From assembly GCA_031763025.1 (NCBI GenBank), contig JASSKH010000009.1, forward strand, positions 4,267,512 to 4,331,511: 64,000 nt of DNA, in the 5' to 3' direction. The DNA comes from Macrocystis pyrifera. Taxonomy: Eukaryota > Sar > Phaeophyceae > Laminariales > Laminariaceae. Below, piece after piece: positions 198 through 63,561 of this stretch (its first letter is position 1; every line of letters starts with the position of its first letter). The notes under the pieces were generated by a model that was not told where the DNA came from, did not search any database, and saw only the letters and a program-made list of their open reading frames with translations. A program made the position numbers and the translations under genes.

Positions 198-1631
198 TCT
201 TATTTTAACATTCCGTTACTGTGTTCCCATACCAGGTAGTATCCAATCCGGGCCCAGTATTACGTTAATGAGTTACAGTTGAGGCCGAAGTCGGTCCAAC
301 GTCCAACGCTATGTTGCGACGTTACCCTTTGGGTTTTCCCGAGATCTGACATGTATTACCTGTGTTAGATAAGTGGCGTCGCGGCGTAACGTAATGTAGC
401 CGTGTTGTCGAATTTCGCCGAGATCCCAGTAGGGGCACCTACATAAGGCAATCAGAAGGGGCTCCGAAAAACGTAGTGTTAATGGTGCTAGCCCCTACGT
501 TATGTTATGTTTATGTGTTATTTGTAACACAATGTTAGGTGCTAATAGTGCTGCCCAACATGGTAACGTTATGTTGGGGTGTTATGTATAAGACTACGCA
601 AAGTTGGTGTGATATGTCTAACGCCACGTAGACAGTAACATTATGCTATGGTGTGAGTAAATCTGCGGATATCGATCTGAGCATGTTAAGGTGATAACGT
701 ACGGTGAAATAGTAACCTTGTTTCAGTGTAGTTAGTGGTACAAGTACGGATCACGGCGGAACATAACGTCACTATACCAGAGCTGGACGAGATCGAACAG
801 AAACATAACGTTAAGGCGTGAGCACGTTCGTGGGTTTCCAGTCATCAATGTGTTGCGGCGCTAACGTGATTGCTCCTCCAGTGCCAACACAATGTTAGCA
901 CGTGGCGACGTCCTGCGCTAGGGCCACAACGTAGATATGTGTTACCCGAGTGTTACGTTATCCGAGGTGTCGAACGTTCATGTACCAATACACAATACAA
1001 ACATCCCTTGTATCGAGGGACAGATTGGTGCATGTCGTACCGCGGCTGTGAAGAAGGAGTAGCACTATCAGAGCTGTCAACATGACCACGCCACCCTGTA
1101 CGCGTTTGAGCTCCGGTGGAAAACTTTTACAAGTTTGAGGGCGCACGCTACTTGTACGGTACCGGCGCTCTCCCAAGAAACAAAGACCCTAAGCCCAGCC
1201 TGAGATTCCCGGGGACACGAGAACTTCGGTAGCGGTTATACTACTGTAAGTGTTATTGCAGTGTGGAACGCACCTTTCTTGAACGAAACATCTAGTCTTA
1301 TTGGACCATTGTCACGGTTTCTTATTAAATCTAGCCTCATTCGGGCAGTACCCGGGTTTCTTGTTCATAGATATATTGTTGTCTCACCTTCCTGTGCGAT
1401 ACTTAAGTGATACCGATGGCTGAATGTAACCGACGTGGAAGCCTCGGCACCCCCTTCCGCTTTCGAGCTACTCATGCCTCTACTTTTTCTTGCGAGGGGA
1501 CTTTCGTTCACCATCTCAAAATATGATAAATATGACACCAATTTTCTGCGCAAAATGTTTGTTTTACGATAGAAGGCATTGCAAATCGGAGACGGGTTTT
1601 TTTTCCCACGGCTCATTTTGTTAGGTTCACC

Positions 1632-2752: not shown

Positions 2753-2922
2753 GTTACGTTTACGTTGTGAAATTTCGGTTACAGGAACCATTAATTCCCA
2801 TCACCCGTCGACGTTCAGTGATGTTATGGGTACGTCTTTTTAACAATTTTTGGAATCCGGGGATGACGACCAAATCAAAACGTCAGGTGCGGTTTCACCA
2901 ACCGACTGCTGTAGTACAGTAA

Positions 2923-3109
2923 TGGTCCCTCTATAGTGCCGGTATCACATGCGCCAGCCCACAATACCGGCACTATATATAACGGCAACCGGCACTAACT
3001 ACTCCCGCACACTGACTACCACACTGATTAATCCCGTCCGTGCCAACCTATTTCGAAGGCACTACAGCGGGCAGCCCCTACCACCCAACCAGCACTACGG
3101 AGGGACCAC
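2923..3109 (+). repeat. Family C MITE-like element
   Basis: About 190 bp with inverted ends GGTCCCTCTATAGTGCCGG / ...CACTACGGAGGGACC and an internal AACGGCAACCGGCACTA block. Confidence 0.8.
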
Positions 3110-3318
3110 TACTGTAGTGGAAACGCGGTGTACTATACCCTGTGTATGTGTATACGGCTGTGCTGTAATCGAAGCAGCAATCGCACACACGCGGCTTGCA
3201 AAGGCGAGGTTCGACGAAATCCTCGATCTCCCAGCTCAGGTTGTGTGTGTGTTTGTTTATTTTTTATTTTTAGTAGACAGAGTGGTGCCATGCGGCGCAT
3301 GTATCGGAGATTTCCATG

Positions 3319-3576
3319 CACTACCTGTACAGTATTGCGGGGTAGTAATCAGAACCAAATATGGTGTGCAAGTATGAGGGGATACCTGTTTTTTACGCCC
3401 ATCGTGGGTTCTGATCCTTACTACATATGCCCACCCGTAATAGTTCCCACTACCTGTACAGTATTGCGGGGTAGTAATCAGAACCAAATATGGTGTGCAA
3501 GTATGAGGGGATACCTGTTTTTTGGGCCCATCGTGAGTTCTGATCCTTACTACATATGCCCACCCGTAATAGTTCC
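3319..3576 (+). repeat. Family B element, tandem duplication (129-bp period)
   Basis: 3319-3447 and 3448-3576 are nearly identical. Each runs from CACTACCTGTACAGTATTGC through GTAATCAGAACC to CACCCGTAATAGTTCC, with an inverted AATCAGAACC/GGTTCTGAT core. Confidence 0.9.
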
Positions 3577-4440: not shown

Positions 4441-6625
4441 AGGATTCCCATCAAAGAGGAGCGCGAGCGCTGCGCCCTGTCCGTCGGACAGTTCAGACCG
4501 GAGAAGGACCACGCGATGCAAGTCCGAGCGCTGGCGGAGTTGAGGAAACTCTCGAACACACGCAAGTCGTCAGGCAACGACACACCCAACGGCCTCAGCT
4601 ACTCGTCCTTCGACGACGTGCGGTTGGTGATTCTGGGCAGCTGTCGGAACGACGACGACCGGCGAGTGCTGGCGATGACGCGAGCGCTAGCGGTGGAGCT
4701 GGGCGTGGAGGAGCGGGTGGAGTTCGTGGTGAACTGTAGCTACGACGAGCTGAAAGGCTGGCTGGGGCGGGCCAGCGTGGGGCTCCACACCATGTGGAAC
4801 GAGCACTTCGGGATCGGCGTGGTGGAGATGATGGTGAGTGGCGTTTTGGTGGGCGGCATTGTTTTTTTTTCGCGTTTCGGTAGGTCGTACCACTCTGGCC
4901 GGGAATATAAGGAGCGTTCAGACATTGATATGAAGACGAAGCGGTCCTTCTATTTCCGCCTACAGTAGTATGTATCGACGTTCTTGCACGGAAACTCTTG
5001 AGAATTTGTTTGTGGGCATGTGGTTTGTTTTCCTCTGTGTACCGCTTATTTACATATCTGGAACGCAAAAATAGCAAACGATGACCGGCTTCGCGGGGTT
5101 TCTCGTCCAACCATGTAGAGGATGTGCAATCCACCGACTACTGCTGCAGTTAGCTTGATTCTGCGGCAAGTTTGCTCTTCTAGTGGTGGTTTTACGACAT
5201 GTACTTCACGGACGCCATTCGCACCGCAGCAGGCTTCTTCGCCGTTTTTCACAGAGCAGAGCATCCTGCTGAGAATTTACGTATTTGCATGCCGCCCGCA
5301 GGAATTGGTAGAATCTAGGTTGCTAATTGTTAACGCAAAAAAAATTATTAAATACCCTCTCACACACTACCTGGGATGTTTCTTGCAGATTTGTGTTTGC
5401 TTTAAACTGTCAATGCTTTTTACTCACAGTCGCTACTGAGTTGCCCCGGTTTACGGAGGCTTCTAGACACTCCTCTGGCCGGAAATGTAAGGAACGATTG
5501 GTATTCATATGTGTGTGTAAAGGTTCCTTGTATTCCCGCGTAATACGTAGACGCGAAACTATTTATTGTCCGTGCGTCTGTGACCCCCCCAAATTCAGAA
5601 GCTCATAACCTACACATTTTTTTTTTTTTTTTCCGAACGATCCCTAACGGTTGACGCCCATACCGCACGCAGCGGAAATCGATAGCCGACCCACCTACAA
5701 GCGGTGACGCGCCAACCATCGGCTGCTTTTTTCTGTGTCCTGTGCTTTGAGCTATATGCGAGCCCCGCACCCAAACACCCCTGTTCCAATAGTCGCTCGA
5801 GCAAGAATCGGTGCGAGCATCATTCGGAAAGCACGCACGGATCATCGATCAAAACAGATATGGGTTCTATCGGTAGAGGGGTTTGTCGCCCGACGGCATT
5901 GCCAAGTTCGGTCCGCGCTGCTGGCATGGGCGTTGATGGTGTCTTGCGGTGGCATATTTTGACAGGGGTGGTTGGGGCCCAGGGTCGCTTATTTCTGCAA
6001 ACAGCAACGCAAACAACACGCAACACCTCAGCAGCAGCAGCCTATCGCCACCATCAGCAGAAGCAACGTTATGGTGTAAGAAATGTCTTGCCCTTGGGCC
6101 TTGCCTCATTACAATATATATACTAGTCCCATATGCAGCAGGAGTGGCTACTCGTACTGTCGCTCTTGCTTGTTAGGATTGGAGCTGATTTTTTCGGAAT
6201 TTTCCTAATATTATATTATGTTACGAGTACAATTTTGTAGAATCTAGCTCTCATCACAGCAGCAGAAATTAGACACAACATCATGTCACACAACAGACAA
6301 GTTACCTCAGAACAAGTCCACAGCATATAGGGAAACGAAAATCAGCGCAAGGCTCAACAAACCAAAAGGGGGACACCGTTTTCTGTCAAACGGTCCATGA
6401 CTCCAAATATCACGACTAACGGCGATATACACAGATCAAGTGGAATCCAGACGTACGTGGGTAGATACTGCTACTAGCAGGAAACAGCAGCCGCAACAGC
6501 CACAACAACTGATAGTTGCAGGAATAATCAGCAATGGGTGTTGAGGTCTTGGTCTGTTGGGCTAATGGCAAAAGGTTTATCGATCGCCTATCCAAAGGAA
6601 GCCTTACCAGGTATAACTTGTAACG

Positions 6626-6661
<36 letters not shown>

Positions 6662-10120: not shown

Positions 10121-10351
10121 CCTATCGCTACTAGCTGCTTCGAGACGCGCGACTTTGCCGCCGTTGCCAGGCTACCGAGACTCCAAAACAAAAAACAACA
10201 CAACTGTTTGCGGTACGAGAGATGGAAGGCCAAACATTTGCGGGGGGAATGCGTGGAATACATCAAGTGAAAAGCGCAAGCGCACACACGCTCCGCTCCG
10301 CTAAGCAGCAGCGCAATCCATAGTAGCAGGGCCGTAGCTGCGTGCAAAAGG
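10121..10351. promoter_or_regulatory. Candidate bidirectional promoter, decapping-factor gene / importin gene
   Basis: 231 bp separate the two divergent start codons, so both 5' UTRs and promoters must lie here or overlap. I see no convincing TATA box or repeated element. The region is free of the transposon-like repeats that fill nearby introns, which fits a constrained promoter. Inferred from gene geometry only. Confidence 0.45.
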
Positions 10352-33061
<22,710 letters not shown>

Positions 33062-33065
33062 CCAT

Positions 33066-35224: not shown

Positions 35225-35363
35225 GTTCGATCGCGCGCTTCGCTTCTACGAGGTGTGTGCGTGTTTTCAGGGTTATCTACAAACTGTTTCAGATTTGATG
35301 AAAGGCAACGACAATCGCTACCTGGTATGCCCTACCAAAGATGCCACGAAAGGCGACAGCTGC

Positions 35364-35692: not shown

Positions 35693-35693
<1 letters not shown>

Positions 35694-36301: not shown

Positions 36302-46313
<10,012 letters not shown>

Positions 46314-46563
46314 GGGCAAACTGAACCTCGACCTCGAACGCTCCCGCTCAAGCCGTCCCTCCAGGTATCGATACTTAAAAAAAACACCCTCCCATCAACA
46401 CGCCTCCCCAAACATTGCAAACCCTGATTACCCAAGGTTCTTCAGGTTCTTGTTCGTACTGCCGCTGCGTGGTGCGGTAGCAGTTGCGACAGGTCCAGTG
46501 CTCCCACTTCCCATCCATTTCATTGATCACTGACTACGAGGGAAGAATCCAGAGAAGACTCGC
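46314..46563. promoter_or_regulatory. Candidate bidirectional promoter, lipase / VPS18
   Basis: 250 bp between the divergent ATGs of the lipase (46313, -) and VPS18 (46564, +). No transposon-like repeat and no obvious TATA box. This is the second divergent pair in the window with nearly the same spacing. Inferred from geometry; it depends on the first exon of each gene being right. Confidence 0.4.
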
Positions 46564-49003
46564 ATGAATCTATTCGAGGACTGGGATGCCACAGAAAAGC
46601 GCACGCAGCAATCACAAAGGGGAGCACCGAAGGCGAGCTCTGCTGCAACACCAACGCGTGCACAACAGTTGTTGCAGCAGGGGCAAGGAACACAGCAACA
46701 ACAGCAACGACAGCGATCGCCAGGCTCGCGTGATGCGGGCGGCACCAGCAGCAGCACCAACAGTAGCAAGCCGAGCCAGCAGAGGAGACCGCAAGGAGGC
46801 ATACTGGGTTCCGCCTGGGGACAGCGGCATCGCTCGCCTTCCCCAACTCCGCAACCAGCAACTGCCATAGCCGCGGTAGCGTCAAGCTCAAGCGGAACAC
46901 GACCACCTGCCGGCGGCAGCTCGAGCACTAATCCTTTCGCGTCTACTAACCCGTTTGCGTCCTCCAATCCCTTTGCGACTTCCAACCCGTTCGGTTCTGG
47001 GGCGAGCACGAACCCGTTTACCTCGAATCCGAAGGGAGCAGCAGCAGGCGCGGCGACGGGGAGGAGCGTGTTCGGGGATGCATCGAATGTGAGACTCTTT
47101 TCTTGTACTGGTACGAGTAGCTCCGTGCTTTCTGTATTCCACCCCTATGCTCGGCGGACGGCCTCCAGCGTAGGTTGACCCCCTCGACAGCAGCAGGGCA
47201 GCAACAGCAGCAACGCTGTTTCTGTCTCCCTGCAACATGCCACGAAAGACTAAATCCGTCTCCACCAGCCCTGAGCAGCCTTTCCCGTACAGTTCATAGG
47301 TAAGCCTGTATACTTCGATGTTGGAAACCCCTCCCTTCACGCACCCCCCCCCCACCATACCGGGGACCAAGCATGTCGTCCCCGGGTATGAGTACCCCGT
47401 ACAGCATCATAGCTGTCAGTGTGACTACTCGTAATGTACAGCAAGTACAGCTGTGCTCCTTGTCTCCTCGTGTGCTTGTGTGGTGTTTGGGGTTCCCAAA
47501 CGGAACATGCCTCAAGCCTGCAACAGCGACCACTTTTGATGCAACTTGCGGCTCACCCGATGACGGTCACACGACTTATCTATTCCACAGAACACGCGAC
47601 GCACCGAGCGGAAGGCACGAAGAGGGGCCCAGCCCCCCTGCCTCCCTCGCCAAGCTTAAGCTTCACCCGCCATCGCAGACGTGTTTTTTTTCTGTAGTTT
47701 ACCACGAAAGACTGCGCCTGCCTCACCTTTGCCTGAGGCTCTCCCCTCCCTCCCTCCCTCCCCGTCTCTCTCCCTTACCTGGTACATCTCTGTCGCCTGC
47801 CTGCCCACGAGTCCATACGGCGACGCACGCCTCCGCACGACCATTCAACCCCCCCTCATTAGTGTTGGCGTTGTATCAACGAGTCAAACTACTTCATTAT
47901 CAGAACTGGTAGTCTACACTGCCAGAATTAACCAACTCTACAGTAGTTCGATTTGATAATGTATAGTTTAGACACATCGGACAGATCATCTACAGATCAT
48001 TTACAGATTATTCCCACTTGATTATCTAGATATTTCAGGGCAGATAGATAGATTCCTGATGTGTATGATCTGTAGGATATAGCTCATGTCGCCGGGCGGG
48101 ATCTGTACAATCTTTATGATCTACTGTGGGCCATGTTTACTGGGCCGGATCTGTGCTGTACAGGTCCTGTGCAACATACCACAACACCTGGTTAGGATGT
48201 ATTTGTACAGTAGATGATCTACAGATCTACGTCGTGATATGTCCGGCTCGCGATGGTTTTGTCTCCGAAACGTGGGTGCCCGCACTTGCTTCCAAAGGGG
48301 CTGTGAATGTAGCCGCTAACCGCGCACGTCTCCCGCAACCCCGTCTCTCTCTCTCTCCCTCCCCCCTTTGTCCCGCCCTCAACGCCCCATTGCCGTGCTG
48401 CCCCTGCCCCTTCTCCTGCCCTTGCTCCTACCCCTTGCCCTGTCCCCAACACAACACAACACCCCACAACACGGGATCCTTCCGCCACTGCCGCCACTGC
48501 CGCCGCCGCGCGTGCCCACCGCGCGCAACAACAACAAAACCCAAAAAAAAAAACGTTTCGCGTCATCGCATACCCACACCCACACATGCACACCCGCATA
48601 CAAAATGCACACAAACACGCAACCAAACCCTAAAAGCTTCTCCCCGCCGCGAAACGAGGAGAGCTGCCGATATTCTCCCTGCAGCGCCTAGACTTCGATG
48701 GCGCCTCGGCCGCCTTCTCCTCCTCCGCCGCCACCGGCGCCGGTGGCGGTCGCGGGAAGCATCTCCGAGCGGCTTCCGCGTCGTGGTCCATCTTGGCGGT
48801 TGCGGTCGGCAACGGCACCCTGGCCATGGCCACATCGGACTGCTGCGTCATCCGATGGAACGCGGAGAGGGAGGGCGAGGCGAGGGTAAGAGGGTAAGGG
48901 GGGGGGGGGGGGGGGGGGAGGGGTTCTCGGGGTACTGATGTCCAACTTGTCCAGCTTTCACCGACCAGGCAGACACTGCACCAAGCGCGAAGCGCTGTGA
49001 GGT

Positions 49004-49046
<43 letters not shown>

Positions 49047-50999
49047 CGAAACGATTTGTTCTTGTTCAGTTTCGGTTCCTTTGTTATTTATAGTTTTTCG
49101 CTGCCGGTGGTGTGTCAGTCGTGAATTCACCGCATGTAATGGTCACGGAGTATATGGACGCGCCTGTTTCGTTTTCACACATGGAGGGATATATCTTTTA
49201 TTTTTTCCCCCCGAGCGTTCGTGCCCAAATTTCGGTGCTGTGGGGCCGACCGCGGCGCACGACGACAAAAAAAAAGAAACGGGACTTAATTTCAATCTCT
49301 CCCAACTTGTCGAACTCAACGTGCTATGCTATTTTCAGTACAAATTCGAAGTAAGTATAGTAGTGAGAGGGTCGAAAATCCGTGCAGACCGCGGCGTCGA
49401 ACCGCGAACGCTGTGTGTGCAGAGATCGAGATCTCCAAGCGGCAGGAGGACACGATCCACAAGATCTTTCTGGATCCGACGGGTAATCACCTGCTGGCGT
49501 GCCTGCACGGCGGGGAGACGTACTACCTGCACTCGAGCACCGCGAGGCCGAAGCGGCTGCTCAAGTGGTCCGGCGTCGTCGTTGAGGCCGTCGGCTTCGA
49601 CGCGCAGCGATGCACAGAGGTACGCACGCCCGTGTACCGGGCAGGATAGCTGACGGTGACTTTTGGAAATATCTCGTTTTTATGGATACGCAGAGCGGAG
49701 CGGAGCGAGAGATTGACGGGTGTGTTTCGTAGGGTATGTACCCTGGGGGTACCCAGGTATCTGCTCGAATTACTCTGGAGGTACCCGGGTACCTACCCGA
49801 ATCACTCTGGAGGTACCCGGGTACCTTCCCGAATTACTCTGAGGGTACGCGGGTACCTACCCGATTTGCTCTAGAGGTACCCAGGTGCCTGCCCGAATTA
49901 CTCTGGAGGTATTCAAGCGCCTACCCGAACTACTCTGGAGGCACCCGGGCACCTACCCGAATTTGACCAAAACAACCAGGATTGGTGCCCGGGTGCTCAG
50001 GAGTATGCTGTATAATTCCGTACTATAACACACCCTTGAAGCATTTCGATCACAATGAGCAATGCCAGGGGCGGTACCCTATAGAGGTGGTGCCTCTCAT
50101 GAGGAGGTATACATACTCGCTGATCTCACCCGATATATATGGCTTCGGAGAAGTTTGCTCGCTCAATTCGACGGACGTTTCCATGCGCTAGGGTAGGTGG
50201 TCCCGAAACAAATACCCTGTTATATTAACGTGTAAAAATGTCACGCCTTGGTATGCACTGTTAATAACAGGCAGTCGCTCAGACGGTAAAATAAAAAATC
50301 TGAGCCTTGACCCTTTTTGTTTAGAACCGCAGTCCCGTTTTTGGGGCAAATCACCCTAATTTCAAGTAGTCTGTCGCCAAAACGGGACTGCGGGCCTGAA
50401 AAGGGGTTAAAGTGGCACTCTTACCGTGACATTGCTCTTAAATCAGGATCATTGCTCTTATATCAGGAGCATTGCTTTTATGTCGGGACCGGTATTGGCC
50501 GTAACACCGAGCTTGTGGTAGAAAGGGGCCGTTTTTTTTTTTTTTTTTGTTCTGTGCGTCGGGTTTGTTCGCCGCGTTGGGTTGCGTGCGTGGTCGGAGC
50601 GGCACCGTCAGCGGATTAATAAAAAATGGAAAAAACGCCTCGTTGTGTTTTATGGGGGTGACGCTGCAGTCAGGGCCTCCTACTATTCGTGATCCCCACT
50701 ACTGCTGTCATGTCGTGGCTGTGTAGGTAGCGTTTTGGGCTGCTGGACAGGTAGGGTGAGTTCCTTGCGCACATAACCGGTGTATCCCTAGATAGGCAGT
50801 AGGCGTTTTTTGTGGACAGGGGGCTTGGTTATCTTAGCACCTAATTGGTTTATACTTGAGTATACCTGTATGTATGTAGTAGGCGTTTCTTTTTTTTGCT
50901 CCTGCTCTTGTTTTTTTCCTCCGTATATATGTGTCGCAGTTATTTTTTTGCTTCTGCCCTTCTTTCTTGTCCGTGTTACTCCCCGATGCTTACCTTCCA

Positions 51000-51030
<31 letters not shown>

Positions 51031-54000
51031 CCTCCTCTTTTCACCTCGTTCCCACTCTCTCCCCTTCCCCCTTATCCTTCCACGAATCTATTCGCCGCGT
51101 TTCTCACACACAAAAACACTCAATAACAACAAACAAAACAAAACAAAACAAAACGAAACAAAACAAAACGAAACGACTATGATCTAACACGCTAAAAGGC
51201 AAGCACGAAGGGCATCGTCATCGGCACGCGGTCGGGTAACCTGTACGAGTCGTGCCTGGAAAACAACGGCAAGGAGCGACCCTTCACCCTCGTCTACAGC
51301 CTAGCTCGACGCAAGGGACACGGCCCACCCGACACCGGTGTCGGCATTGGAGGCGGTATCGGTGGTGGTGGTGGTGGTGGTGGTGGTGGAGGCGGAGGTA
51401 GCGGAGGCAGTGGCCGGGGTGGAGACGGAGGCGTTGTCGGTGGGTCGGCGGGAGGGGGGGCTCGGGAGGGTCATGGCGGGGCGGGCAGCGGAGGCGTGGT
51501 GGCGGCGCTGTACCTGGAATCGATGAGCTCGGCGGTGCACGGGGAGACGAGGGTGTTCGTCATGGCGGTAACGGCTAGCCCGCTTCGGTTGTACCTGTTC
51601 ATGGGAGGGCCGACCTTGGAGGTGGGATGGGGTGGGGGGCGGGGCGGGGTGGGGTGAGGTGGGGAGCGGTTCGGTGCTGTACGGCGTGGTGGGGTGCGGT
51701 GCCTTGCAGTGCCGTGCGGTATAGGTGCGGGGCGGGGTGGTTCGGTTAGATACGGTTCGGTTCGGCTCGGTTTGGTCCGGTTCGGTTCGGTTCGATTCGG
51801 TTCGGTTCGGTTCGGTTCGGTTCAGTTCGGTTCGATTCAGTTCGGTTCGGTTCGATCTGGTTCGATTCGGTTCGGTCTGGTTCGGTCTGGCACGGTTCGG
51901 TTGGGTTCGGTTCGGTTCGGTTGGGGGCGGTACGAAGTTGTGCTGTGCTGTGCTTGTGCTGTGCGGTTCGATGCATCTGGTCTAGGTCGGAAACTCTGCC
52001 GTTTACGTGCTTGTACTGCTCGGTTCCGCCAGCGATTGGCTTTTCACGAGGGCGAACGAGAAAAATACGCAGAAGGGGACTTTTCCCGCCGGAAGACACC
52101 ACTGCGGAACAAGCTCTTGTTGGGTTTTTGGTTTTAGTGCTTTCCGGGTGCGATGGAGCCGCTTTTCGCTGGGTCGGCGGGCGGGCGAGTTCAAGCCTCG
52201 GGAGTGGTTGACGTGCACAATATGTTTTGGCATCATTGTAGTTTGGGTCCGCTCGCTAGAAGCAGAAGTGCTGAGAGAGATGGAGACGCTTCGATCCTTG
52301 TCTTGTTCTTTTGACGTGTGTGCCATCGCGATGACATTCGAAAGGTCGGCGCCCCCTAAGACAGCGCTCTCGACGAGAAACAACATATGCCGTCGACTGC
52401 TTGCCGTGGGTCCGCAACTCAGAATAATCATGACCAGAGAGAAGTTGCCGAGACTGGGGGGGGGGGGGGGGGGGGGCGGCTGAGCCGGGTTCGATCTGAG
52501 CGGTCTGGTCATCTCCAACCCTTTTATAAACATATATACGCCTGCTGCATGGTCTCTGCGACTACTTTTTCTGCCGTGCCGCGTCTACCGACTGATCGAT
52601 CAACCGACCGACCGACCAAAGCACGCCTCCATTCGTCACCCTCCGCAACCCTCTTCCCCCCCCCCCAGACCCACCCCCCCCAAACAAAGATGTTGGTCGG
52701 TGGCATTGCTTGACAGCCTGAAATAAAAATAGTTTATTGAGTCTTACGAGGTCTTGACGGACGTCATCCACCCCCACACCCCCCCCCGCCCTATATATTA
52801 TATATCGGTTGGGTTGGCGTCGGTTGGCAACGACACTGTAAAACATGCCAGCCTCTACGTGAGCTAGACAACCAGGGTACCGTTTTTTTTTTTTTTTGGC
52901 GGTCGGTCACCGCTGGCGATCGCGTTATAGATGTTTTGTGCGAGGTGGAGAACCTTTACTCCGGACAAGAGGAATGATCGCATCACGTGGTGTTTATGGC
53001 AAGGCACTCACGAGGCAGTTACATACTAAACCCATTGCTGTCTCTGGAAGTAGCCACACCAGAAAATAGCCCATGTCATTGAAGCTGTCATCATGTGCAA
53101 GTCCTCATCACAACCGGATTTTAGTACTACGGGGGACCACAGTAAATAGGACCAAATATTGTTAGTAAAAATAGGTAAATATATAGGTTGTTATGTATAC
53201 CATAGGTCCTATTAACTATGGACCCCCGTGATAGGATGAAGCTCATCGTTTATGCGACTCGCAGAACACCGCTTCGCGCTTGGTGCACGCTAAGCTTGCA
53301 TGGACGGTGAAAACCCGACGTGCTCCCTCCCAGCATTGTAGGGATGCGAGGATCTACGGTCATACGACTACGACCGTGCATGATATCGAGTACCCCCCCC
53401 CCCCCCCCCCTTTCCCTATATTATATACCTGATACATATAGGTTGGGTTGGCGTCGGTTGGTGACGACGCTGTAAAACACGCCTCTCACTGCGTGAGCTA
53501 GACAGCCAGGGTGCCGTTTTTTTTTTTTTCTTGGCGCTTACCACGGCTGGCGGTCGAGCTAGATCATTTTTGTGCGGGGAAAACTTTTACTCCGCACAAG
53601 GGCGATGGTCGTATCACGTAGTGTGTATATGGTGAGGCACCCACGAGGCAGTTACATAGTGAACCCATCTCACACTTCATGGGACTCGCCCAACACCCCA
53701 CGTTGTCTCGCGCTTGGTGCAAGCAATGTCTTCCTGGTCGGTGAAAACCCGACGTGCTCCGTCCCGGCACTTTAGGGATGCGAGGATATATGGTCATACG
53801 ACTACGGCCATGCATGAGATCGAGTACACCCCCCCCCCTGCTCCGTATCGAAAGCTCGAAAGAGATGCCCGGTCAATGGTCAAATGACTAAGGCAAGCAA
53901 CTAGTGAGTATGTACGCCCCCCACGCCCCCCCCCTCCCGACTTCGGTGCTCCGTCTCGAGATGGATGCGTGGTCAATGGTCAAATGACTTAAGGCAACCA

Positions 54001-56174
54001 ACTAATGAATGTGTACGCCGCCCCCCCCCCCCCCCCCCCCCCCCGGCTACGATCACGGCCATGCGTGACACAAGTACCCCCCTCGTCACCGCCCCCACTC
54101 CCTCACCCCCCCCCATCCCCTCCACCCTTTCCACTCTCCCGCAGGTCATGTTTCGAGATCACCGAGAGTCGGGCTCCACCTCCTTCCGTGAGCTCCCCGG
54201 AAGCATGCTCGGGACGGAGTTGCACGTGTACCGGAGGGCGCTTGGGGCGGGGGCGGGGTCGACGAAAATGGTTGAAGCTGGCGGGCCGAAGCTTTCCGGT
54301 GGGGGCGGGAGCGGGAGCGGTGGGGGGGGTGCGGGTGCGGGGGGGGGGGTGAGAGGGCGGGGGCCGGGGGGGTTCGGTCACAAGGAGTCCCCGCAGTCGT
54401 TTGCCCTCCTTACGTCGATGGGGATCTACCACGGGAGCTTGGCCTTGGGGAATCAGGTGCGAGCAGGGGTGCATACGTACCGTGCGGTCTTGCGCACCAG
54501 GTGTGTGTGAAAGCGGGGATACTGGCCCAACAAGGCTGTAGATTTCTTGGTTGATGAAAAGGTAACAGACGCGTCCTACATTGTCCTGAGTATATATATT
54601 ACCGCTCTCGATTTTTTTCCGGGATACTTGCCCGATCTTAAGGCTAGAGTTTCATATTTTGATGGGATGTGGTACCGCACTGAGTTGAGTACCAGGTATA
54701 ACCAACCAAACCTTTCTCTCCCGATTTTCTCGTTTTCCCCCCGGAAAATTTGTGCGAAAGTTGGGGTTTCTTGTCGGAATATTTCTCGACCCTTTGAGGA
54801 GCGCAGTCCCGTTTTGGGGACGAACTACTTGGAGAATTTGATTGGTTTGTCCTCTGAAACGGGACTGCAGCCCTAAATGGATGATAGGCGGAACGTTTTT
54901 TTTTTTTTTTTTTGTTCTGTTCATCATTTTTACTTTCCAGCTTAACTCGTAGGATGGTTTTTACCCTCAAGCGATCTTCTGGACAAAAGCCGTGGTCACA
55001 AGTGTCGCCCAGCACGTGCCTTCATTTTTATCACGCATCAGCATTCCCACTGCTCGTCGACTTTCGTCGAATGATTGTAGCGAACTCACGCTCTCGCGCT
55101 TTCCGCTTCTCATTTTTTGTTTTGCATGAAATGCCCTTGCGAGCATGCACTCGACGAGCCTCGATCCCACGAAATTGATCTTAGTGCGGAGGGCCATAGT
55201 AAATAAGACCTGATATTGTTATTACGGGGGGCCATAGTTAACAGGACAAAATATTGTTAGTACTAATAGGGAAATATATAGGTTTTTATGTATGCCATAG
55301 GTCCTATTTACTATGGCCCCCCGTAATGGTAGGCACTCGGACCACCTTCCAAGCCGCACCGGGAATGGTGATGCGCAGATGGGATGGGATGGGATGTATA
55401 GGAGGGTCTTTTAAAGTTTCTCACCAATGCGTCAGCTGTGAGTACAGACCGATTGAGCGGTTGAAAAATACATTTTTTTTTTTTTTTTTTTTTTTTTTGC
55501 AAAAGCTGCATGACAGGACAGACGCGCTCGTCGGGCGTGCTTGTTCCACGTTCACATTTTATGGTGTGGCGTTTTTGTGTTTGATTAAGCCTACGGATGT
55601 AGCAGTCGATACTCGGTTCTGTAAGCGAGCGTAACGACATGTCGTCCGTCCGCGCGTGTTTTTGTGTGAACTCCTCTTTTAAGATAGCGGTCGACGACTG
55701 TCCTGCCGGACGATTTTTCGGGGACGATTTCGGTCCGTACGTAACCATTCTGCCCGCTGACACTATTCCCTAGGGGCATAGTAAATAGGACCTACGGTAC
55801 ACACAAAAACCTATATGTTTTCCTATTTTTACTAACAATATTTGGTCCTATTTACTATGGTCCCCCGTAATATATGATCTGCAGGTTATATAGTACTCGT
55901 TCTTGTGGGGGGGGGGGGGGGGGGGGGGGTACTCGATATCATGCATGGCCGTAGTCGTATGACCATATAATAGACCCTCGCATCACTACAATGCCGGGAC
56001 GGAGCATGCCGGGTTTCCACCGACCGGGCTTAAACATTGCTTGCTGCACCAAGCGCGAAGCGCCATGAGGCGTTCGGCGAGTCGCAGGAAGGGGTCAGCT
56101 GCATCCTACTAGGAACCGCTTGTGACGCGCGGACCTGCATATGGACGACGGCTTCAATAAGTTCATTTATTTTC

Positions 56175-56217
<43 letters not shown>

Positions 56218-59200
56218 ACAATATGATATGGTCACACGGTATAGAACAAGCAGCTACGTACGGTGTCATACAATGGCTGTGTCGATACGAACGAGTAAAA
56301 AAAAGGTTTAAAATATGATTAGCTTGCTGACAACAGCAAGCAGCTTTCGTACGAAGCGGTACGATTCTGGCGCGTGAGTATGTATGAGCACCCGGGGTAA
56401 TCTACTCTCTCATGGGCAAGGTGGTACAAGTATACCAGGTACCGCCTGGTATTCCGTGCCAGGTGCATCAAAGCAGTACATGTGCCGCGCAAATGTCGGC
56501 GTAGCCGCGTATGTACCCTGCGGCGGGTACGGGTCGAGAAATTCTGGAACGCACGCGCCGCGCGCTGTCGTAGGGAAGATTTTAACTGTATTTTTCCCTG
56601 AAAAAAAGAAGAAAAAAAAAAAAAAAACGAAACGAAATCAATTGCTGAGAGCGCCTTCGTAGCGTGGGTAGGCACGATTCGAGGCGAATCGACGCCGGCG
56701 TGAAAGGGCTGCTGCTGTCTTTCTCCTCGCGATAAGAATGCGACCTTGAAAGGCAAGGAACCGCAGTGGGGAGGGGGGAGACAAGAGCCTACTATTACGG
56801 AAGTCCATAGTAAACAGGACCTACGGTACACACAAAAATCTATATAGTCACGTAATTTTACTTACAATATTTGGTCCTATTTACTATGGCCCTCCGTACT
56901 GCTATTGCGGGGGACCATAGTAGATAGGACCAAATATTGTAAGTAAAAACAGGGAAATATACAGTTTTTTTTTGTGTGCCGTAGGTCCTACCAGGTAGTT
57001 TCTATGGTCCCCCCCCCTGTAATGTGTGCCCCCGCATCTGGGTTCGTAATAGGTACCCGGTAGGGGAGAGAAAAAAGGAAGGCGAGGGTGATAAATGGGA
57101 TGGAAAAAAGAAGAGAAAAAAGGAAAGGTGCGGTGCTAACAGGGTTGTGACCTAAACTATGCCCGCTCTCTTATCCCTCCCGCGCACTCCCGCTTGTGCT
57201 CTGGGCGTGTTGTCGTCCAGTCCACGCTCGACAACGTCATCGCCGAAGCTCAGCTGGTGCCCTACCCGGAGCGGGAGGAGGGAGGGGGGCGGTCTTGGCG
57301 ACGACACGAGCGCGGGGAGGGCCCGCGGGGGGGGTCCCGCCCCCGCTGTCCATGGCCATCACGGAGTTCCACTTCTTGCTGCTTTTTTACCGGCCGCCTC
57401 CAAGTGATCAGCAGACTTAATGGCGCCGTCGTGCAGGTAACGCGATTGCGCAAAAAATGTGTGTGTGTGTGTGTAAAAGGCGTGCCGCGGCAAAGGGGGA
57501 ATGCTCTCTTCCTTTAAGGGAAGCACTACCGACGGCAAGGGAAGCACTACCGACAGCGAAAAGAAAACCCCCAAAAACGAACGATCCCATGGCCTATTAC
57601 GGGGGACCACAGTAAATAGGACCAAATTTTGGTAGAAAAATAGGTAAATATTTAGGTTTTTTGTGTGTACCATAGGTCCTATTAACTGTGGACCACCGTA
57701 ATAGCGTGTAGATATATACAGCGAATGAGAGGTACCGAGTCTGTCCGGAAAGCACAAGGACGGTTTTCGCTATTACTGTGAAGATAAATGTGGCCTTATT
57801 TATTGCGGGGGGGTCCATAGTTAACAGGACCTATGGTATACATAAAAAACCTATATGTTTAACTATTTTTACTAACAATATTTGGTCCTATTTACTATGT
57901 GGTCCCCCGTAGTACTTTTCCGGGCAGAGTGGTGCGAAAGATGGAAAAGGGCTCTCAAGATTGTGAGATTGTTCTTCGGTGCGCTTTGCCCATTTGGTGT
58001 AGTGCTGCAGTCCCGTTTCGGGGACGAAGCACTCAAATTCCAAGTAGTTTGTTTCGGCTTTGAAAAAGGTACTGCTGTGTATACAAGGAAGTCATGTGTC
58101 GGTAAAAAAAAAAAAAAAAAAAGGTACAGCATCCTACTGTACCTGTCCTGGCGTGCGTTGCGATTTCGCTAGGGTATTTACGGACCGGGTATCCCAGAGG
58201 GGGTATATGAAGTGTGTGTCTTGTTAGGCTTGCACCATGCTGTTGTTGTTGTTGTTGTTGTTGTTTTCACTATAACTCATCGCCAAAATGCAGTCTGTGG
58301 CCGCAGGACAGGCTCCAATAACTCTGTGGAGTGGAATATTAGTAATAGACTGATTTCGAGCAGGGAAAAAAAAATACAGGACAAACGGAAAAATGATTCG
58401 TGAACACGGTACGTAAACTGTAGTACGGCAGAAAAAAAAAAAAAACTGCAACGAATCGTGTACGTCAGACCAAAGTAGAAAGGGAGACTACAGTAGCCTA
58501 CGTGCCAGATACGCATGATGAAATAAACGCTGCACAAGTCGCAACTGAAGCCGAGGAGACAGCGTTATAATATCCACGAGAAAAAAGACGGGATGAGGCA
58601 AATCGACGTCGAGATCGAAATCGAACCCGAGAGGGGAAGAAAGAAAGAAAGAAAGAAAGAAATATTTAAAGAAATAACCACTGCCGGCTCTTACTTCCCG
58701 TCCCGAGCAGGAGGAGAGCCTGGAGACGCAGGACTCCGACGTCGGGCACGTCCTGACAATGCTCACCGACCCTTTCACGGGTGGCGGGGCCATGCAGGGG
58801 GCGTCCCCGGGCATTGGCATCGCGAATCGCTTGTGGCTCTTCACCGACAGGCTCCCTTTCAAGGTGCGAACGCCTCGGACGGACCATACAGATCATACAG
58901 ATCATGCAGATCATACAGATCCCTGTGTGCTGCGATAGGGGTATTCCTCGCTTGATTTTAGTGCAGGAGCTCCGTACCCGCCACAACTGCATCTTTCCGG
59001 GCATAGTTCAAGGAGTGGTAGGTATGTATGATCTATATAGCTCAACGTTGCCGCGTGTGGAGTAAGGCGCATGTTCTGCATGATCTGCAGTAGTAGCACG
59101 TACGGGCAGCACATGTTGTTGTTTTTTTCCCTGCATGAGATCTGTTACTGTACAGATAGATCCTGCACAGCAAGAATATCATGACGGTAGGCTAGGATCT

Positions 59201-61277
59201 ATCTTATCTACCTGGTAGAAGATCTCGATCATGATCGGCCGGACACATGAAGGTGTGGACGGGACGGGGCGGCGGGAGACCAAAGGGGTGGGGGCGGGGG
59301 GGCAGGGGGGGGGGGGGCTATTTTGTTAGGGGGCTGAAGAGTGGACTCACTCTGTGTCGCCGGCATCGTACAGCAGTACTGCTGGTTCCCTCTACAGCAG
59401 TGCCGGCTGCTCCCTGTAGTAGAGTAGTGCCCGTGAAATCACATGGGCCAAGACACTGTATTAACCTGTACGGCAGTGTGCGGAGTAATCAGTGCCGGTT
59501 GGTTGCCGCTATACTTGTATATAGTGCCGGTATTGTTGTGCTGCCTGGCGCATATCATACTGGCACTATGGAGGGACCGGCAGTACTGCTGCTGTACCTG
59601 CTGTGCTGTGCTGTGCTGTGCTGCAGTATGGTTGTGTGGAGACAGGGGGAAACGTGTCACGGCGGCGTTTTCCCAGTGTATTTTCGAAGAACACAAATGA
59701 TGTAGCATGGACGGAAAGCCAATCATCAACCGCGTGCTTGAAACGGACAACGTTTTTTTTTTTCCGATTCACGCAGCGTTTCTCGAGGTACGACGCACTG
59801 AAGCGGGCGCTTCGGGCTTATTTTGGGCCTGTTTAATCAGAAGCCAATGTGGTGTGCAAGCATGAGGGGATACTTGATTTGTCGTGTCCATGGTAGGTTA
59901 TGATTCTTACTACATATGCCCACCCGCAGCCATCATTATTACGGGGAACGTATTACGGGGGCCCATAGTAAATAGGACCTACGGTGCACACAAAAAAATG
60001 TATATTTCGCTATTTTTTCTAACAATATTTGGTCCTATTTATTACGGTCCCCCGCAGTAGTAATCAGGACCGAATATGCTTCCTAGTTAGTGGTAAAAAT
60101 ACTGGAATATGTAGGCTTTGTGTGTATGATGGGTCCTGATCACTGGTAATACTATGGTCTCCCCGTGATAGTTGGCTCGTATCATAACCTGGTGGGCGGG
60201 GTGTTTATGGTCGCCTGCGTCGTGCGGTAATTTTGCGGAGGTCTAGTTGTGCTTTTTCGTACGTGCCTGGGTGGAGCGTGGGTGGGTCGGAGTGTGTGTG
60301 TGTGCCGGGATGAAGAATAACACTCTGTCCCAAAAGATATGAGGACCGTTTTTGATTTAATAATGAATGTACAGGCGGTACTCGTCTCGACGTATGTAGG
60401 TCCCGGCACACACCCCGGCATACCTTGCCGACGTCTTGTTCCGGTATCATCCACGCAGCAGCTGTTTGACAAGTATAATAGGTGGGCGTATATATATATA
60501 CATATATATAATTTATTTTTCACGCTTTTTTGTCGTTTTGCCTCCCATGTTCAGGTGCGAGTATCCCACGAAGACAGGGACGTGTGGATGCTGTTCTTGG
60601 AGAAGGCCCTAGCGGGGGAGGAGGGGCATTTCGACAGCGCTACGCAGTACTGCAAGAATGCCACGGAGCGCGCCCAGGTGAGGAAGGCCGTCAACCCTTC
60701 TGGTGTGCTGCGGTCCCGTTTCGGGGACGAAGTACGTATGTAGAGTCTGAGTGGCTCGGCCTCAAAACGGGAGTGCAGTCGTAAAAAGGGTGGACAGTAG
60801 TGGTACAAAACCGAAATAATATGATTAAGCAGATGTACGCGAATGGGGGGGGAATGGGGGGGGGGGGGGGTCCTCGATAGGAGAGATGTACTCGATCTCA
60901 TGCATGGCCGTAGTCGTATGACCGTAGACCCTCGCATCCCTGAAATGCCGGCACGGAGCATGTCGGGTTTTCACCGACCAGGCAGATATTTTGCTTGCAC
61001 CAAGCGCGAAGCGCCGTGAGGTGTCCGGCGGGTCGCATGAAGGGTGAGCTGCATCCTACTGAGAACCGCTTGTGAGGCGGACTTTCTTGCATATGGATGA
61101 CAGCTTCAATGAGTTAGTTTAATTTCCGGTGTAGCCACTTCCAGAGACAGCAATGGGAGTACTATGCAACTGCCTCTTGGGTGCCTTACCTTGAACACTA
61201 CGCGATACGATCAATTCCCTTGTGCTGAGTAACCTCGCACAAATGATCTAACTCGACGACCAGCTGTGGGTGACCGC

Positions 61278-61309
<32 letters not shown>

Positions 61310-63561
61310 GGTACCCTGGATGTCTAGCTCACGTACGAAGATTGAGCGGCATGTTTTACAGTAGTGTCGTTGCCAACCGACGCCAACCCAACCCATATAT
61401 AGTATATATAATGCGAATGGAGGGGGAACAAACACCAAAGAAGATGGGGGGATAAATGTCAAGCTATTTACGGGGGGCCATAGTAATAGTAAATAGGACC
61501 GAATATTGTTAGAAAAAATAGGTAAACATATACCTGGTAGGTTTTTGTGTGAACCGTAGGTTCTATTTACTATGGTCCCCCCGTAGAAAAGTAAGGATAC
61601 GGCGCGGGTGCGGAGGAGGAAAGAACGCAGGTGGATGGGAGGGAAGGAGGGGGAGGGAGGGAGGAGGGAGGGAGGAGGAAGGAAGGACGGGGTGGCAAGG
61701 AGCATGGGGCAGGGAAGCGAGGGTTGACGCCGTTCCGTTTATTAGACCCGACGACAACGAGGGAAGTGAAAAAAAAATTAGGCCGCATGAAACTGTCGTG
61801 GAATAACGCGAAAAAAAAACGACACAAGGTAAATCCTTGCTTGCTATTATGTTCCTTTTGCAACTTCCCTGTTCAACCCTATACAGTAGTCACAGCAATT
61901 TCAGTCGCGGAGAGCTCAAATTCTGGAGAACAAGCTCTCTCCGATAAGAACGACCCTTACCACATCTTTTTTTTTCCTTTTTTTTTTTTTTTTTTTTTTT
62001 TTCTAGAGTTGGTTGGTGAGCTCCTCAAGTGAAGAGGCGCCTTCGAAAATGGTGCCGGTTCAGCAGTATGCGCCAGCCAACAATACCGGCACTATATACA
62101 AGTATAGCGGCAACCAACCGGCACTAATTACTCCGCACACTGCCTGCCTCACTGGTTAATCCCGTATGTGCCAAGCGGCTTATTTCACCGGCACTATATA
62201 GAGCAGACAGGGCGGCACTACGCAACCGGCACTACAGAGGGACCACTATTACATGGGGACCATAGTAAATAGGACCAAATACTCTTAGTAAAAATATGGA
62301 AATATATAGGTTTTTGTGTGTACCGCAGGTCCTATTTACTATGCCCCCCCGTACTACTAGCGTACCTGTATGTCCCGACGATACCATGGTACGCGTCGTG
62401 ACACGCTCCTGCTTGCGCGCGCGCGCGCTGGGATTTTCGTATTTCGAACCAGGTGCACTACATTCAGGCCGGGTGGTACTTTCGAAGAGGGCAACACACC
62501 CTCGCGGCCCGCTACTACGCTAGGACTCCGTGCTGCTTCGAGGAAATAGGTACCGTGTTGCTGCTGGTGTTGTTGTTGTTGTTGTTGTTGGTGTTGGTTT
62601 TTGGTGGCGGTGGCGGTTTTGGTGTTGGTGTTGGGTGTTGGTGTCAGTGTTGGCGGTGTTGGTGCTAGGTGTTGGTGTTGGTGTTGGTGTTGGTTTTTGT
62701 GGTGGGGGTTGGTGGTGGTTTTGGTGTTGTCATTGCTGGGTGTTGGTGTTGTCATTTTTGGGTGTTGGTGTTGGTGTTAGTGGTTGTTTGGGTGTTGGTG
62801 TTGGTAGTGGTAGTGGTGGCGTGTTTATTCGTGGTGTTGGTGTTGGTTGTGTTGGTGTTGGTGGCGGCGGTGGTGGTGTTGGTGTTAGGGATGGAGTTGG
62901 TTTTAGTGTGGTGATGGTGCTGGTGGTGGCTGTGGTGGTTGGGTTGCTGTTGTTGTTATTGTTGTTTTCGTTGATGTTGGTGCTGGTGGAGGCTGTGGTG
63001 GTCGGGTTGTTGTTGTTGTTGTTGCTGCTGTTTTCATTGATGTTGTTGGTGGTAGACAGCGATGGTGGTTTGTTTTCGCTGTGTCTACTCTTCAATTAAA
63101 TTGACCCTTGTAGTGCCGTTTATTTTATTTACCCCTGGACTCAAATTTAACTTCAATGTGAACGGTCGCTAGCGTGTCCAGTCGACCAATGGAAACCACC
63201 ACCCCCTTCTCCCTGCCCCCGTCCCCCCTCCCCTCCCCTCCCCTCCCCCCCCCCCCCCCCTCTCTCTTCCTCTCCCCTCCCCCCTCTTCCCTCTCCTTCC
63301 CCTCCTTCCCCTCCTCCCCTCCCCTCGAAAACGCCAACCACCATCACCACCACCACCACCACCACCACCAACCAGCGTTGAAGTTCATCGAGTGCGACGA
63401 GGGGTGGAAGGCGACGGCTCTCAAGACATACCTTCTCGAGCGCTTGCGGCACTTGTCGTCGCGACAGGGGGAGCACAAGATGCAGCGGACGATGCTCTGC
63501 ACCTGGCTGACCGAGCTGTACCTTCGAGGGTTCACCTACCTGCCGCTTGATCCGGGAACCG
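46564..63561 (+). CDS. VPS18: VPS18 (Pep3), HOPS/CORVET core subunit; 3' end beyond window
   Basis: Ten exons: 46564-47088, 48685-48885, 49425-49619, 51199-51621, 54145-54456, 57221-57436, 58711-58863, 60555-60677, 62453-62549, 63376-63561 (810 codons). The last donor, G|GTGAGC, leaves phase 1 and the gene continues. VPS18 is the RING-bearing core subunit of the HOPS and CORVET tethers for endosome-vacuole fusion. Matches in order: RLDF start of the beta-propeller, DTIHKIFLDPTGNHLLACL, WSGVVVEAVGF, GIVIGTRSGNLYES, FALLTSMGIYHGSLALGNQ, PPLSMAITEFHFLLLF, RLWLFTDRLPFK, then helical repeats DVWMLFLEKAL...ATQYCKNA, YYARTPCCFEEI|ALKFIE and LCTWLTELYLRG. The C-terminal RING is outside. Oddities: a 175-residue head with five NPF motifs, Gly-rich insertions in exons 4 and 5, and paired frameshifts in exon 6. 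Confidence 0.9.
47089..48684 (+). other. VPS18 intron 1
   Basis: Contains a TACCTGGTA (47776) and a family G repeat (47973-48240); C-rich before the acceptor. A small additional exon cannot be excluded, but the phases already match without one. Confidence 0.6.
47973..48240 (+). repeat. Family G repeat
   Basis: Multiple AGATCATCTACAGATC units, GATATAGCTCATGTCGCCGG and CGGATCTGTGCTGTACAGG. Confidence 0.7.
48886..49424 (+). other. VPS18 intron 2
   Basis: Two G runs soon after the donor (48897-48918, ~49003-49045) around a family F fragment. The acceptor is the second AG of GCAGAG. Confidence 0.7.
48928..49002 (+). repeat. Family F repeat, internal fragment
   Basis: GTACTGATGTCC..CACCGACCAGGCAGACAC..GCGAAGCGCTGTGAGG between two G runs. 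Confidence 0.75.
49746..49964 (+). repeat. 32-bp minisatellite, ~7 copies
   Basis: Unit GTACCCGGGTACCTACCCGA plus ATCACTCTGGAG. Divergence rises toward both ends. Confidence 0.9.
50311..50410 (+). repeat. Family D element
   Basis: CGCAGTCCCGTTTTTGGGG ... CGCCAAAACGGGACTGCGGG. Core is inverted relative to 21451. Confidence 0.75.
51738..51930 (+). repeat. GGTTC pentanucleotide array, ~38 units
   Basis: GGTTC with GATTC/GATCT variants, grading out of a GGGGTGGGGC-rich stretch after the exon 4 donor. Confidence 0.9.
52790..53400 (-). repeat. Family F repeat, full length, split by a family A MITE
   Basis: Reverse copy from the TATATATTATATATCGGTTG end to GATATCGAGTAC and a C run; interrupted at 53125-53233. 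Confidence 0.85.
53125..53233 (+). mobile_element. Family A MITE with visible TA target duplication
   Basis: Interrupts a reverse family F repeat at TTAG-TA-GGATG. The two halves resume with TA on each side of the element (53125-53126 and 53232-53233), where intact family F copies have one TA. Direct evidence for TA-specific insertion. Confidence 0.9.
53411..53830 (-). repeat. Family F repeat, nearly full length
   Basis: Joined tail-to-head to the previous copy through a C run. Its terminal TA tract contains TACCTGATA. Confidence 0.85.
53835..54015 (-). repeat. Two family F leading units (A unit) in tandem
   Basis: CGATGCGTGG-type units ending CAAATGACTAAGGCAAGCAA, separated by C-rich spacers, directly upstream of VPS18 exon 5. 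Confidence 0.75.
54790..54878 (+). repeat. Family D element
   Basis: GCGCAGTCCCGTTTTGGGGA ... GAAACGGGACTGCAGCCCT; the most complete copy. Confidence 0.8.
55181..55328 (+). mobile_element. Family A MITE with an adjoining left-end fragment
   Basis: A complete copy (55219-55328) is joined to the first ~38 bp of another copy (55181-55219). Confidence 0.8.
55764..55872 (-). mobile_element. Family A MITE
   Basis: Reverse orientation; left terminus degraded (CCCTAGGGGCATAG). Confidence 0.85.
55906..56216 (+). repeat. Family F repeat, 5' half between G runs
   Basis: G run, TACTCGATATCATGCATGGC ... TTCATTTATTTTCCGGA, then a 39-G run. Confidence 0.8.
56793..56900 (-). mobile_element. Family A MITE
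   Basis: Reverse copy lying head-to-head with the plus copy that starts 3 bp further on. Confidence 0.85.
56903..57023 (+). mobile_element. Family A MITE carrying a CCAGGTA insertion
   Basis: The right arm reads GGTCCTACCAGGTAGTTTCT in place of GGTCCTATTTACT. This is a 7-bp insertion after a TA, with two substitutions in the following bases. Confidence 0.85.
57595..57703 (+). mobile_element. Family A MITE
   Basis: Complete; TATTACGGGGGACCACAG ... GGACCACCGTAATA. Confidence 0.88.
57801..57914 (-). mobile_element. Family A MITE
   Basis: Reverse orientation, 97 bp after the previous copy. Confidence 0.85.
57995..58070 (+). repeat. Family D element, partial
   Basis: Left end and core (CTGCAGTCCCGTTTCGGGGA, CCAAGTAGTTTG) present, right end lost. 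Confidence 0.6.
58878..59240 (+). repeat. Family G repeat
   Basis: Begins with four CAGATCATA/CAGATCATG units, then GATCTATATAGCTCAACGTT and CTGTACAGATAGATCCTGCA; ends with TACCTGGTA and GATCTCGATCATGATC. Confidence 0.7.
59383..59579 (-). repeat. Family C element
   Basis: Reverse orientation, both ends present (GGTTCCCTCTACAGCAGTGC; GGCACTATGGAGGGACC). Confidence 0.75.
59829..59937 (+). repeat. Family B element
   Basis: Diverged relative of 3319-3447 (AATCAGAAGCCAATGTGGTG ... TACATATGCCCACCCG). Confidence 0.7.
59951..60059 (-). mobile_element. Family A MITE
   Basis: Reverse copy wedged between two family B relatives, with a stub ATTATTACGGGGAACG just before it. Confidence 0.85.
60057..60174 (+). 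repeat. Family B relative
   Basis: GTAATCAGGACCGAATATGC ... GGGTCCTGATCACTGGTAAT inverted ends; intermediate in sequence between families A and B. Confidence 0.65.
60691..60790 (+). repeat. Family D element
   Basis: CTGCGGTCCCGTTTCGGGGA ... CTCAAAACGGGAGTGCAGTC; lies 14 bp after the exon 8 donor. Confidence 0.7.
60846..61412 (+). repeat. Family F repeat, nearly full length
   Basis: From a G run and TACTCGATCTCATGCATGG through to CCAACCCATATATAGTATAT; contains an internal A run (~61278-61307). Confidence 0.85.
61465..61586 (+). mobile_element. Family A MITE carrying a CCTGGTA insertion
   Basis: The centre reads GGTAAACATATACCTGGTAG where other copies have GGTAAATATATAGG. This is an exact 7-bp insertion that turns TA into TACCTGGTA. 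Confidence 0.88.
62051..62245 (+). repeat. Family C element
   Basis: GGTGCCGGTTCAGCAGTATG ... CCGGCACTACAGAGGGACC. Immediately abuts the family A copy at 62247. Confidence 0.75.
62247..62355 (+). mobile_element. Family A MITE
   Basis: Complete; ends ~100 bp before VPS18 exon 9. Confidence 0.85.
62550..63375 (+). other. VPS18 intron 9
   Basis: Phase 1 intron consisting of a ~500 bp GTTGGTGTT/GGTGGC array followed by a CT-rich tract and CCA repeats up to the acceptor. Confidence 0.75.
62555..63060 (+). repeat. GTTGGTGTT/GGTGGC array
   Basis: Strand-asymmetric T/G repeat filling most of VPS18 intron 9. Confidence 0.9.

Follow-up and report, generated by a model that had tools for sequence, protein, structure and literature searches.

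A TA-flanked nine-base palindrome in the genome of the kelp Macrocystis pyrifera as the probable excision scar of a transposon working like Tc1/mariner

Transposons of the Tc1/mariner type leave footprints that come from the overhang made by cutting inside the element (PMC3878927). Published accounts, in the passages that give a length, put the footprints of such elements at 2-4 bp or at 1-4 bp. In Table 1 of one review, the footprint of Sleeping Beauty and Frog Prince is C(A/T)GTA and that of Hsmar1 T(T/A)A (PMC3878927); this is at odds with another review, in which Sleeping Beauty leaves TAG(T/A)CTA (PMC2874221). For Minos, a characteristic six-base-pair excision footprint is described (PMC3386967). 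Paramecium IESs, piggyBac and PIF/Harbinger elements (mPing) share TA or TA-containing targets with the kelp sites reported here, and their excision, in the passages of the literature that deal with it, is precise or footprint-free. In Macrocystis pyrifera, we find that the palindrome TACCWGGTA (TACCAGGTA or TACCTGGTA) is very abundant, and it is probably a scar left by the excision of a cut-and-paste transposon that targets TA and operates in the manner of Tc1/mariner. In searches of the open-access literature, judged mostly by titles, none of the papers listed describes such a scar.

The motif resembles the Sleeping Beauty and Frog Prince footprints in that TA is kept on both sides, the bases of the element ends would form an odd-length quasi-palindrome, and the centre is A or T. 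It differs from them in its residue, which is 5 nt rather than 3 nt, and in its 121,279 copies in one genome. Minos has 4 nt in its footprint, against 5 nt in TACCWGGTA, and where Stowaway MITEs and Osmar5 leave heterogeneous footprints of 1-4 bp in grasses and yeast, a single 5-nt product dominates in kelp. Excision of the piggyBac or PIF/Harbinger kind (precise, with a TTAA or 3-bp target) was rejected because the kelp sites keep a residue and their duplication is TA. The hAT kind, whose footprints are palindromes of flanking DNA, was rejected because the kelp residue is constant while the flanks differ.

We analyzed a window of 64 kb (G000:C223:4267512-4331511), a pool of 248 kb made up of the window plus fetched stretches, and the whole assembly (537,376,219 bases in 223 contigs), in which the counting took in TACCWGGTA, the tandem form TACCWGGTACCWGGTA, and the insert patterns of the MITE family A. 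A preliminary description of this DNA had listed 17 copies in the window, and a re-scan finds every one of them exact (Table 1). Its chance expectation of about 0.5 per 64 kb is likewise reproduced by dinucleotide shuffles (n = 100; mean 0.48, maximum 3); Markov models give 0.36-0.41 copies, and 2-kb block shuffles (n = 200) give a mean of 0.33. With the self-matching sequence of the window masked (26%), 14 of the 17 copies survive against 0.29 expected. All copies had been called noncoding, which holds as far as the Pfam-passing ORFs go: Among 40 ORFs scanned, two passed, and neither contains any of the 17. Both are exon-like. The ORF at 4360-4968 matches a group 1 glycosyltransferase in Pfam and is presumably ALG11-like; the one at 10271-10843 encodes an Arm-repeat protein, whose importin-beta-binding match stays below the threshold and which we take to be importin-alpha-like. 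Rfam gave no match at gathering scores.

Table 1. Copies of the palindrome, related TA-flanked gains, and the MITE copies that carry them, in window coordinates
Feature	Position	Strand	Evidence
TACCAGGTA scar	230..238	+	exact match
TACCAGGTA scar	6605..6613	+	exact match; single weak empty-site sister in pool
TACCAGGTA scar	16020..16028	+	exact match
TACCTGGTA scar	18229..18237	+	exact match; single weak empty-site sister
TACCAGGTA scar	19511..19519	+	exact match
TACCAGGTA scar	30170..30178	+	exact match
TACCTGGTA scar	35319..35327	+	exact match
TACCTGGTA scar	38253..38261	+	exact match
TACGTA (2-nt class), 4-bp gain at TA	38876..38881	+	pool sisters 13 empty, 0 filled
TACAGTA (3-nt class), 5-bp gain at TA, family B copy	38900..38906	+	pool sisters 13 empty, 2 filled
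TACCAGGTA scar	40581..40589	+	exact match
TACCAGGTA scar	43346..43354	+	exact match
TACCAGGTA scar in dispersed repeat CCAACCGACGCCAACCCAACC	44944..44952	+	sister comparison
TACCTGGTA scar	47776..47784	+	exact match
Decayed scar TACCTGATA in sister of 44944 repeat	53426..53434	+	gain vs. empty sister
TACCAGGTA scar	54690..54698	+	exact match
TACCAGGTA scar, then CCGCCTGGTA (TACCAGG-TACCG-CCTGGTA)	56433..56441	+	exact match
Family A MITE copy containing scar 56989	56903..57013	+	
TACCAGGTA scar	56989..56997	+	bare-TA sisters: 14 window, 29 pool; filled 0
TACCTGGTA scar	59209..59217	+	exact match
Family A MITE copy containing scar 61531	61468..61581	+	
TACCTGGTA scar	61531..61539	+	bare-TA sisters: 14 window, 32 pool; filled 0

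The excess is confined to one flank, one spacing, and one kind of central base. When the dinucleotides flanking CCWGG are compared, no excess is seen for any but TA: In the window, it accounts for 17 sites and the other fifteen for at most two each, and in the pool for 65 sites (2.0 TACCWGGTA expected), with no other dinucleotide above six. A scan of TACC-N(k)-GGTA has its sole peak at k = 1 (18 sites); no other k up to 29 exceeds six, and the larger of these counts include a local satellite. The central base, counted over TACCNGGTA in the window, is A in 11 cases, T in six, C in one, and G in none. Genome-wide, there are 121,279 copies of TACCWGGTA against 2,421 for the reversed-pattern control (∼50-fold). 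On average, 4.4 kb separate one copy from the next, and at the TA density of the sample, one TA dinucleotide in 225 is involved. The preliminary description had named the lack of a genome-wide excess as grounds for refuting its reading, and these counts do not refute it.

Near-matches, earlier described as common, are weak in the window and clearer in the pool. Half motifs without the second TA number 7 + 12 = 19 in the window, hardly in excess of the 13-16 expected from Markov models, and the other one-mismatch neighbors 16 against 11 expected. In the pool, the one-mismatch neighbors reach 101 against 47.5 expected, a decay that fits neutral scars.

The motif had also been claimed to arise when a TA gains 7 bp. 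This gain is clean at 56989 and 61531, both of which lie in copies of family A, a 106-bp MITE; it is probable at 44944, and weak at 6605 and 18229, with one sister each. For 44944, the minus-strand sister copy from 52834 is empty, the copy from 53468 carries a decayed TATCAGGTA, and the automatic sister test in the pool returned one empty and two filled sisters. The same test found a spanning sister for 14 of the 65 pool sites: At five, the sisters are mostly empty, and at the other nine, among which are recent duplicates like the C1 repeats, they are mostly filled; for other TA-N5-TA words, it counted 25 empty and 287 filled.

The genome-wide pattern TAGGTCCTA-N(1-16)-TTTACTATGG, which spans one fixed TA of family A, has 277 matches, and its reversed control has none. 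Among the 100 matches listed, 28 have inserts of 7 nt, and 11 of these read CCAGGTA and 10 CCTGGTA. The variants among these listed matches include CCGGTA (three) and CCATGGTA, CCCTGGTA, CTGGTA, CCAGTA, CCAGAGGTA, CCCGTA, CCGGGTA, CCGCGTA, and TCTGGTA (one each), with TA footprints of other classes also occurring once each (CTGTA, CAGTA, CTACAGTA, and CGAGTA). Overall, 36 of the 60 listed inserts of at least 4 nt start with C and end with GTA; the remaining listed inserts are chiefly T- or TA-rich runs and short duplications. From this spectrum, it follows that a bare TA alternates with TA-CCWGG-TA and that the inserts show the heterogeneity of end-joining, which matches what the joining of an excision break predicts. 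The preliminary description had made its reading depend on such alternation, and one and the same family A TA is indeed either bare or filled with CCWGGTA across copies, these being paralogs within one assembly. The filled rate at this TA, a rough 0.38% (range 0.15-1.4%, estimated from four empty copies in 140 kb and from 21 of 100 scaled to 277), agrees with the genome-wide average of 0.44% per TA.

A second pattern, in which CCWGG is fixed at the family A TA and the downstream sequence is free, has 375 matches (control, four). Among the 100 matches listed, which have 72 distinct tails, 85 have an intact second TA, in 12 the second TA is altered or the family A sequence is preceded by an additional G (six of these are identical copies), and three continue into foreign sequence. 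These three (in C192, C174, and C126) were considered as parents and rejected as chance matches, since the upstream sequence, when fetched, is not that of the MITE. In none of the other 97 listed is the filled TA occupied by an element, and a few of them are family A-like over the first bases only or have a second scar downstream. Three family A copies (G000:C131:2675481, C189:16179395, and C190:3102158) apparently have two TA scars each, or a CCWGG together with a CTCG, with separate TAs of one copy affected.

Words that can anneal to themselves are enriched between two TAs. Their observed/expected ratios are 1.89, 1.76, and 3.41 for lengths of 3, 4, and 5 nt, compared with 1.04, 1.06, and 1.19 for words that cannot, and self-annealing words with AT, CG, or GC flanks have ratios of 0.96-1.69. 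CAG, TTA, and CCAGG can self-anneal except at the middle base, and resolution of this mismatch can give either A or T. The centers of the motif are consistent with this pattern, with W over S at 17 to one in the window and 11 A and 10 T among the listed family A inserts, though orientation alone would also yield W. Together with the published footprint rule, the scar words predicted from families A and C, and the excess of TACTCGTA/TACGAGTA, this enrichment leads us to assign TACCWGGTA, as a scar, to an element whose ends are CCAGG/CCTGG.

Such an element would have the ends TA-CCAGG...CCTGG-TA (or the same with W swapped) and would duplicate the TA into which it inserts. On departure, cuts inside its own ends would leave a 3′ overhang of CCAGG on each flank. 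The two overhangs would be complementary save for a central A.A (or T.T), so that they could anneal and be repaired to CCAGG or CCTGG, and the repaired site would show a net gain of 7 bp (TA plus CCWGG). An element scarring at each departure would leave scars far outnumbering its resident copies. The reading as an excision scar, which the preliminary description had proposed, is supported by the excess, by the bare and filled TA, and by the heterogeneity of the inserts; the parent with TACC...GGTA ends, which was not found in the window or the pool, is a putative one.

The footprint behaves like that of a Tc1/mariner element: A duplicated TA brackets the residue, as the flank control indicates and as the CCWGG inserts at a bare TA of family A, which end in TA, also show. 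The dominant residue of 5 nt exceeds the 1-4 nt of the Tc1/mariner criterion. We say only that the element works like Tc1/mariner and do not claim membership in the superfamily, because the residue lies outside the published 1-4 or 2-4 bp and the parent was not found. As to the geometry of the cut, the dominance of CCWGG favors a 5-nt overhang (four pairs annealing), and the rare CCATGG favors one of 3 nt (CCA).

The search for the parent covered the window and the pool. An element with TACCWGG ends was not detected among the 93 half sites in the 248-kb pool, where no following 5-mer occurs more than twice. Searches of window and pool for TA-flanked inverted repeats (arms 20-22 nt, up to 5 kb) returned families A, B, and C and single cases, and none of the hits shown starts with CCWGG. 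A single dispersed pair with the half motif TACCTGGGGTATGTACGT, at 12801-12825 (minus strand) and L024:4859, shares a long sequence beyond the motif and was considered as an element end; as its homology (85% identity across 277 bp) extends to either side of the motif, it is a dispersed repeat, not an end. The parentless pattern would be given either by a low-copy element that scars at each hop or by direct insertion of a short word. A TA-flanked inverted-repeat element of 219 bp with the TIR CCGCTTATCSGAGAAAA lies at 27150-27372.

Direct insertion would mean that a TA-specific breaking enzyme or an abortive transposase writes CCWGG and a second TA and that a full-length element is never involved. 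The unoccupied state of all 97 filled family A-like copies among the matches listed speaks for it, as do the lack of a parent in 248 kb, the vast excess of scars over any candidate parent, and chains of TA-delimited units such as TACCAGGTACGTACTGCTGTACCTGGTA; but some of the units in these chains turn out to be copies of a single repeat, several units equal known transposon footprints, and the minor products CCGG, CCATGG, CCAG, and CCAGAGG resemble two joined ends. We know of no enzyme that writes such TA micro-insertions, and we regard this explanation as unlikely. That an enzyme system writes a 5-bp palindrome and a TA duplication genome-wide, spreading itself without any resident mobile element to about one TA in 225, appears decidedly unlikely. 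There is a sizeable chance that something stranger than a Tc1/mariner-like scar is at work. A possible, if rather doubtful, variant of the excision scar, whose probability is contained in that of the excision scar itself, has a 3-nt overhang: The ends would be TA-CCA...TGG-TA and would be joined by fill-in minus one base (CCA + GG or CC + TGG). The insert CCATGGTA (both ends filled) suits a CCA overhang better than one of 5 nt, CCGGTA (both ends trimmed) also occurs among the inserts listed, TACCATGGTA is found once in the window against 0.04 expected, and overhangs of 2-3 nt are the range documented in the literature. Against this variant, CCWGG outnumbers CCATGG by 21 to one among the inserts listed, a preponderance that a 1-nt A.A overlap does not favor, and TACCATA shows no excess in the window (seven against 6.3 expected).

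Selection on a protein-binding or regulatory site could account for a motif that is palindromic, of odd length, and sharply defined in the window, but the motif arises by a 7-bp gain at a TA and not by substitution, the decay of its neighbors is compatible with neutrality, and its 121,279 copies are spread across many contigs; this explanation is barely credible. It is also very improbable that most copies merely hitch-hike in a high-copy repeat containing the 9-mer. Copies of one such repeat on small contigs (L025-L028) do hold three to five motif sites each, and at least four tandem sites belong to it, but of the 17 copies in the window, 14 fall in sequence that has no self-match there, and for 51 of the 65 in the pool, the pool contains no spanning sister.

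If the excision-scar reading is applied to other elements, it predicts further classes of footprint. A family C element lies at 2915-3116; it is TA-flanked, ∼198 bp long, and has Tc1-like ends (CAGTARTGGTCCCTC). The ends of family C, TA-CAGTARTGG, predict TACWGTA, of which the window has 28 against 4.45 expected, a count to which that element contributes its own two ends and a tandem pair another two. The ends of family A, TA-TTACGGGG (TA-TTAC...), predict TATWATA, of which there are 11 against 4.57 expected (three of 200 shuffles reach 11). Both words are also seen as gains in sister repeats. The T(T/A)A of Hsmar1 follows the same rule; it matches the gains of TATWATA as well as the family A ends (TTAC), and differs from CCWGG in bases and length.

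Another class looks like a 4-nt TA footprint: TACTCGTA/TACGAGTA occurs 14 times in the window against 1.05 expected, with mostly unrelated flanks (e.g., at 2008, 6149, 12871, 16968, and 47426). The four nucleotides of the Minos footprint are CGAG or CTCG, which this excess would match. The 1997 work of Arca et al. on Minos names heteroduplex repair in its title. In the pool, TA-CAGCAG-TA and TA-CTGCTG-TA together number 27 against 1.2 expected, with two of the mixed form TACAGCTGTA and none of TACTGCAGTA; these may be a 6-nt class, which suits the excision-scar rule less simply. TAGATSATCTA was rejected as a class since a single local repeat (63612-63887) accounts for all of its five sites but one, and that one (48211) has the same flank.

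If the sites are scars, one genome would hold a readable record of the order of 100,000 departures by a transposon that is perhaps hardly still present, and activity judged by resident copies would be far too low. From sequence alone, the scar classes (CG, CWG, CTCG, and CCWGG) could reveal families that are extinct or of low copy number, together with the geometry of their cleavage; a self-annealing overhang of 5 nt would widen the known range of the superfamily, and the presence or absence of scars could supply kelp population studies with markers at very high density. Should the sites be something other than scars, a novel route of DNA insertion at TA sites would be operating.

Some of the 121,279 copies do hitch-hike or duplicate locally, as the mostly filled sisters and the copies in tandems and repeats indicate; scars carried along inside repeats are a minority. 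The tandem form TACCWGGTACCWGGTA occurs 5,620 times genome-wide (control, 0). Among the 50 places listed, the W order is A then T in 22, equal in 27, and T then A in one, and at least four of the A-then-T places belong to one high-copy repeat family. Self-targeting was rejected as the cause of this excess, since the W-order counts fit repeats and duplication of the 7-bp unit instead; equal W in tandem copies suggests that the unit was duplicated rather than inserted repeatedly. A duplication of 20 kb (L005-L008, in G000:C3) has copies 99.86% identical and ∼120 kb apart in one contig, and comparison of the two revealed no gain or loss of TACCWGGTA between them. The repeat of L025-L028 is 94%-96% identical over several kilobases and includes the perfect palindrome TACCAGGTACCTGGTA. 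At 49739-49963, the window has a 32-bp tandem repeat of seven copies with TACCCGGGTACC-like cores.
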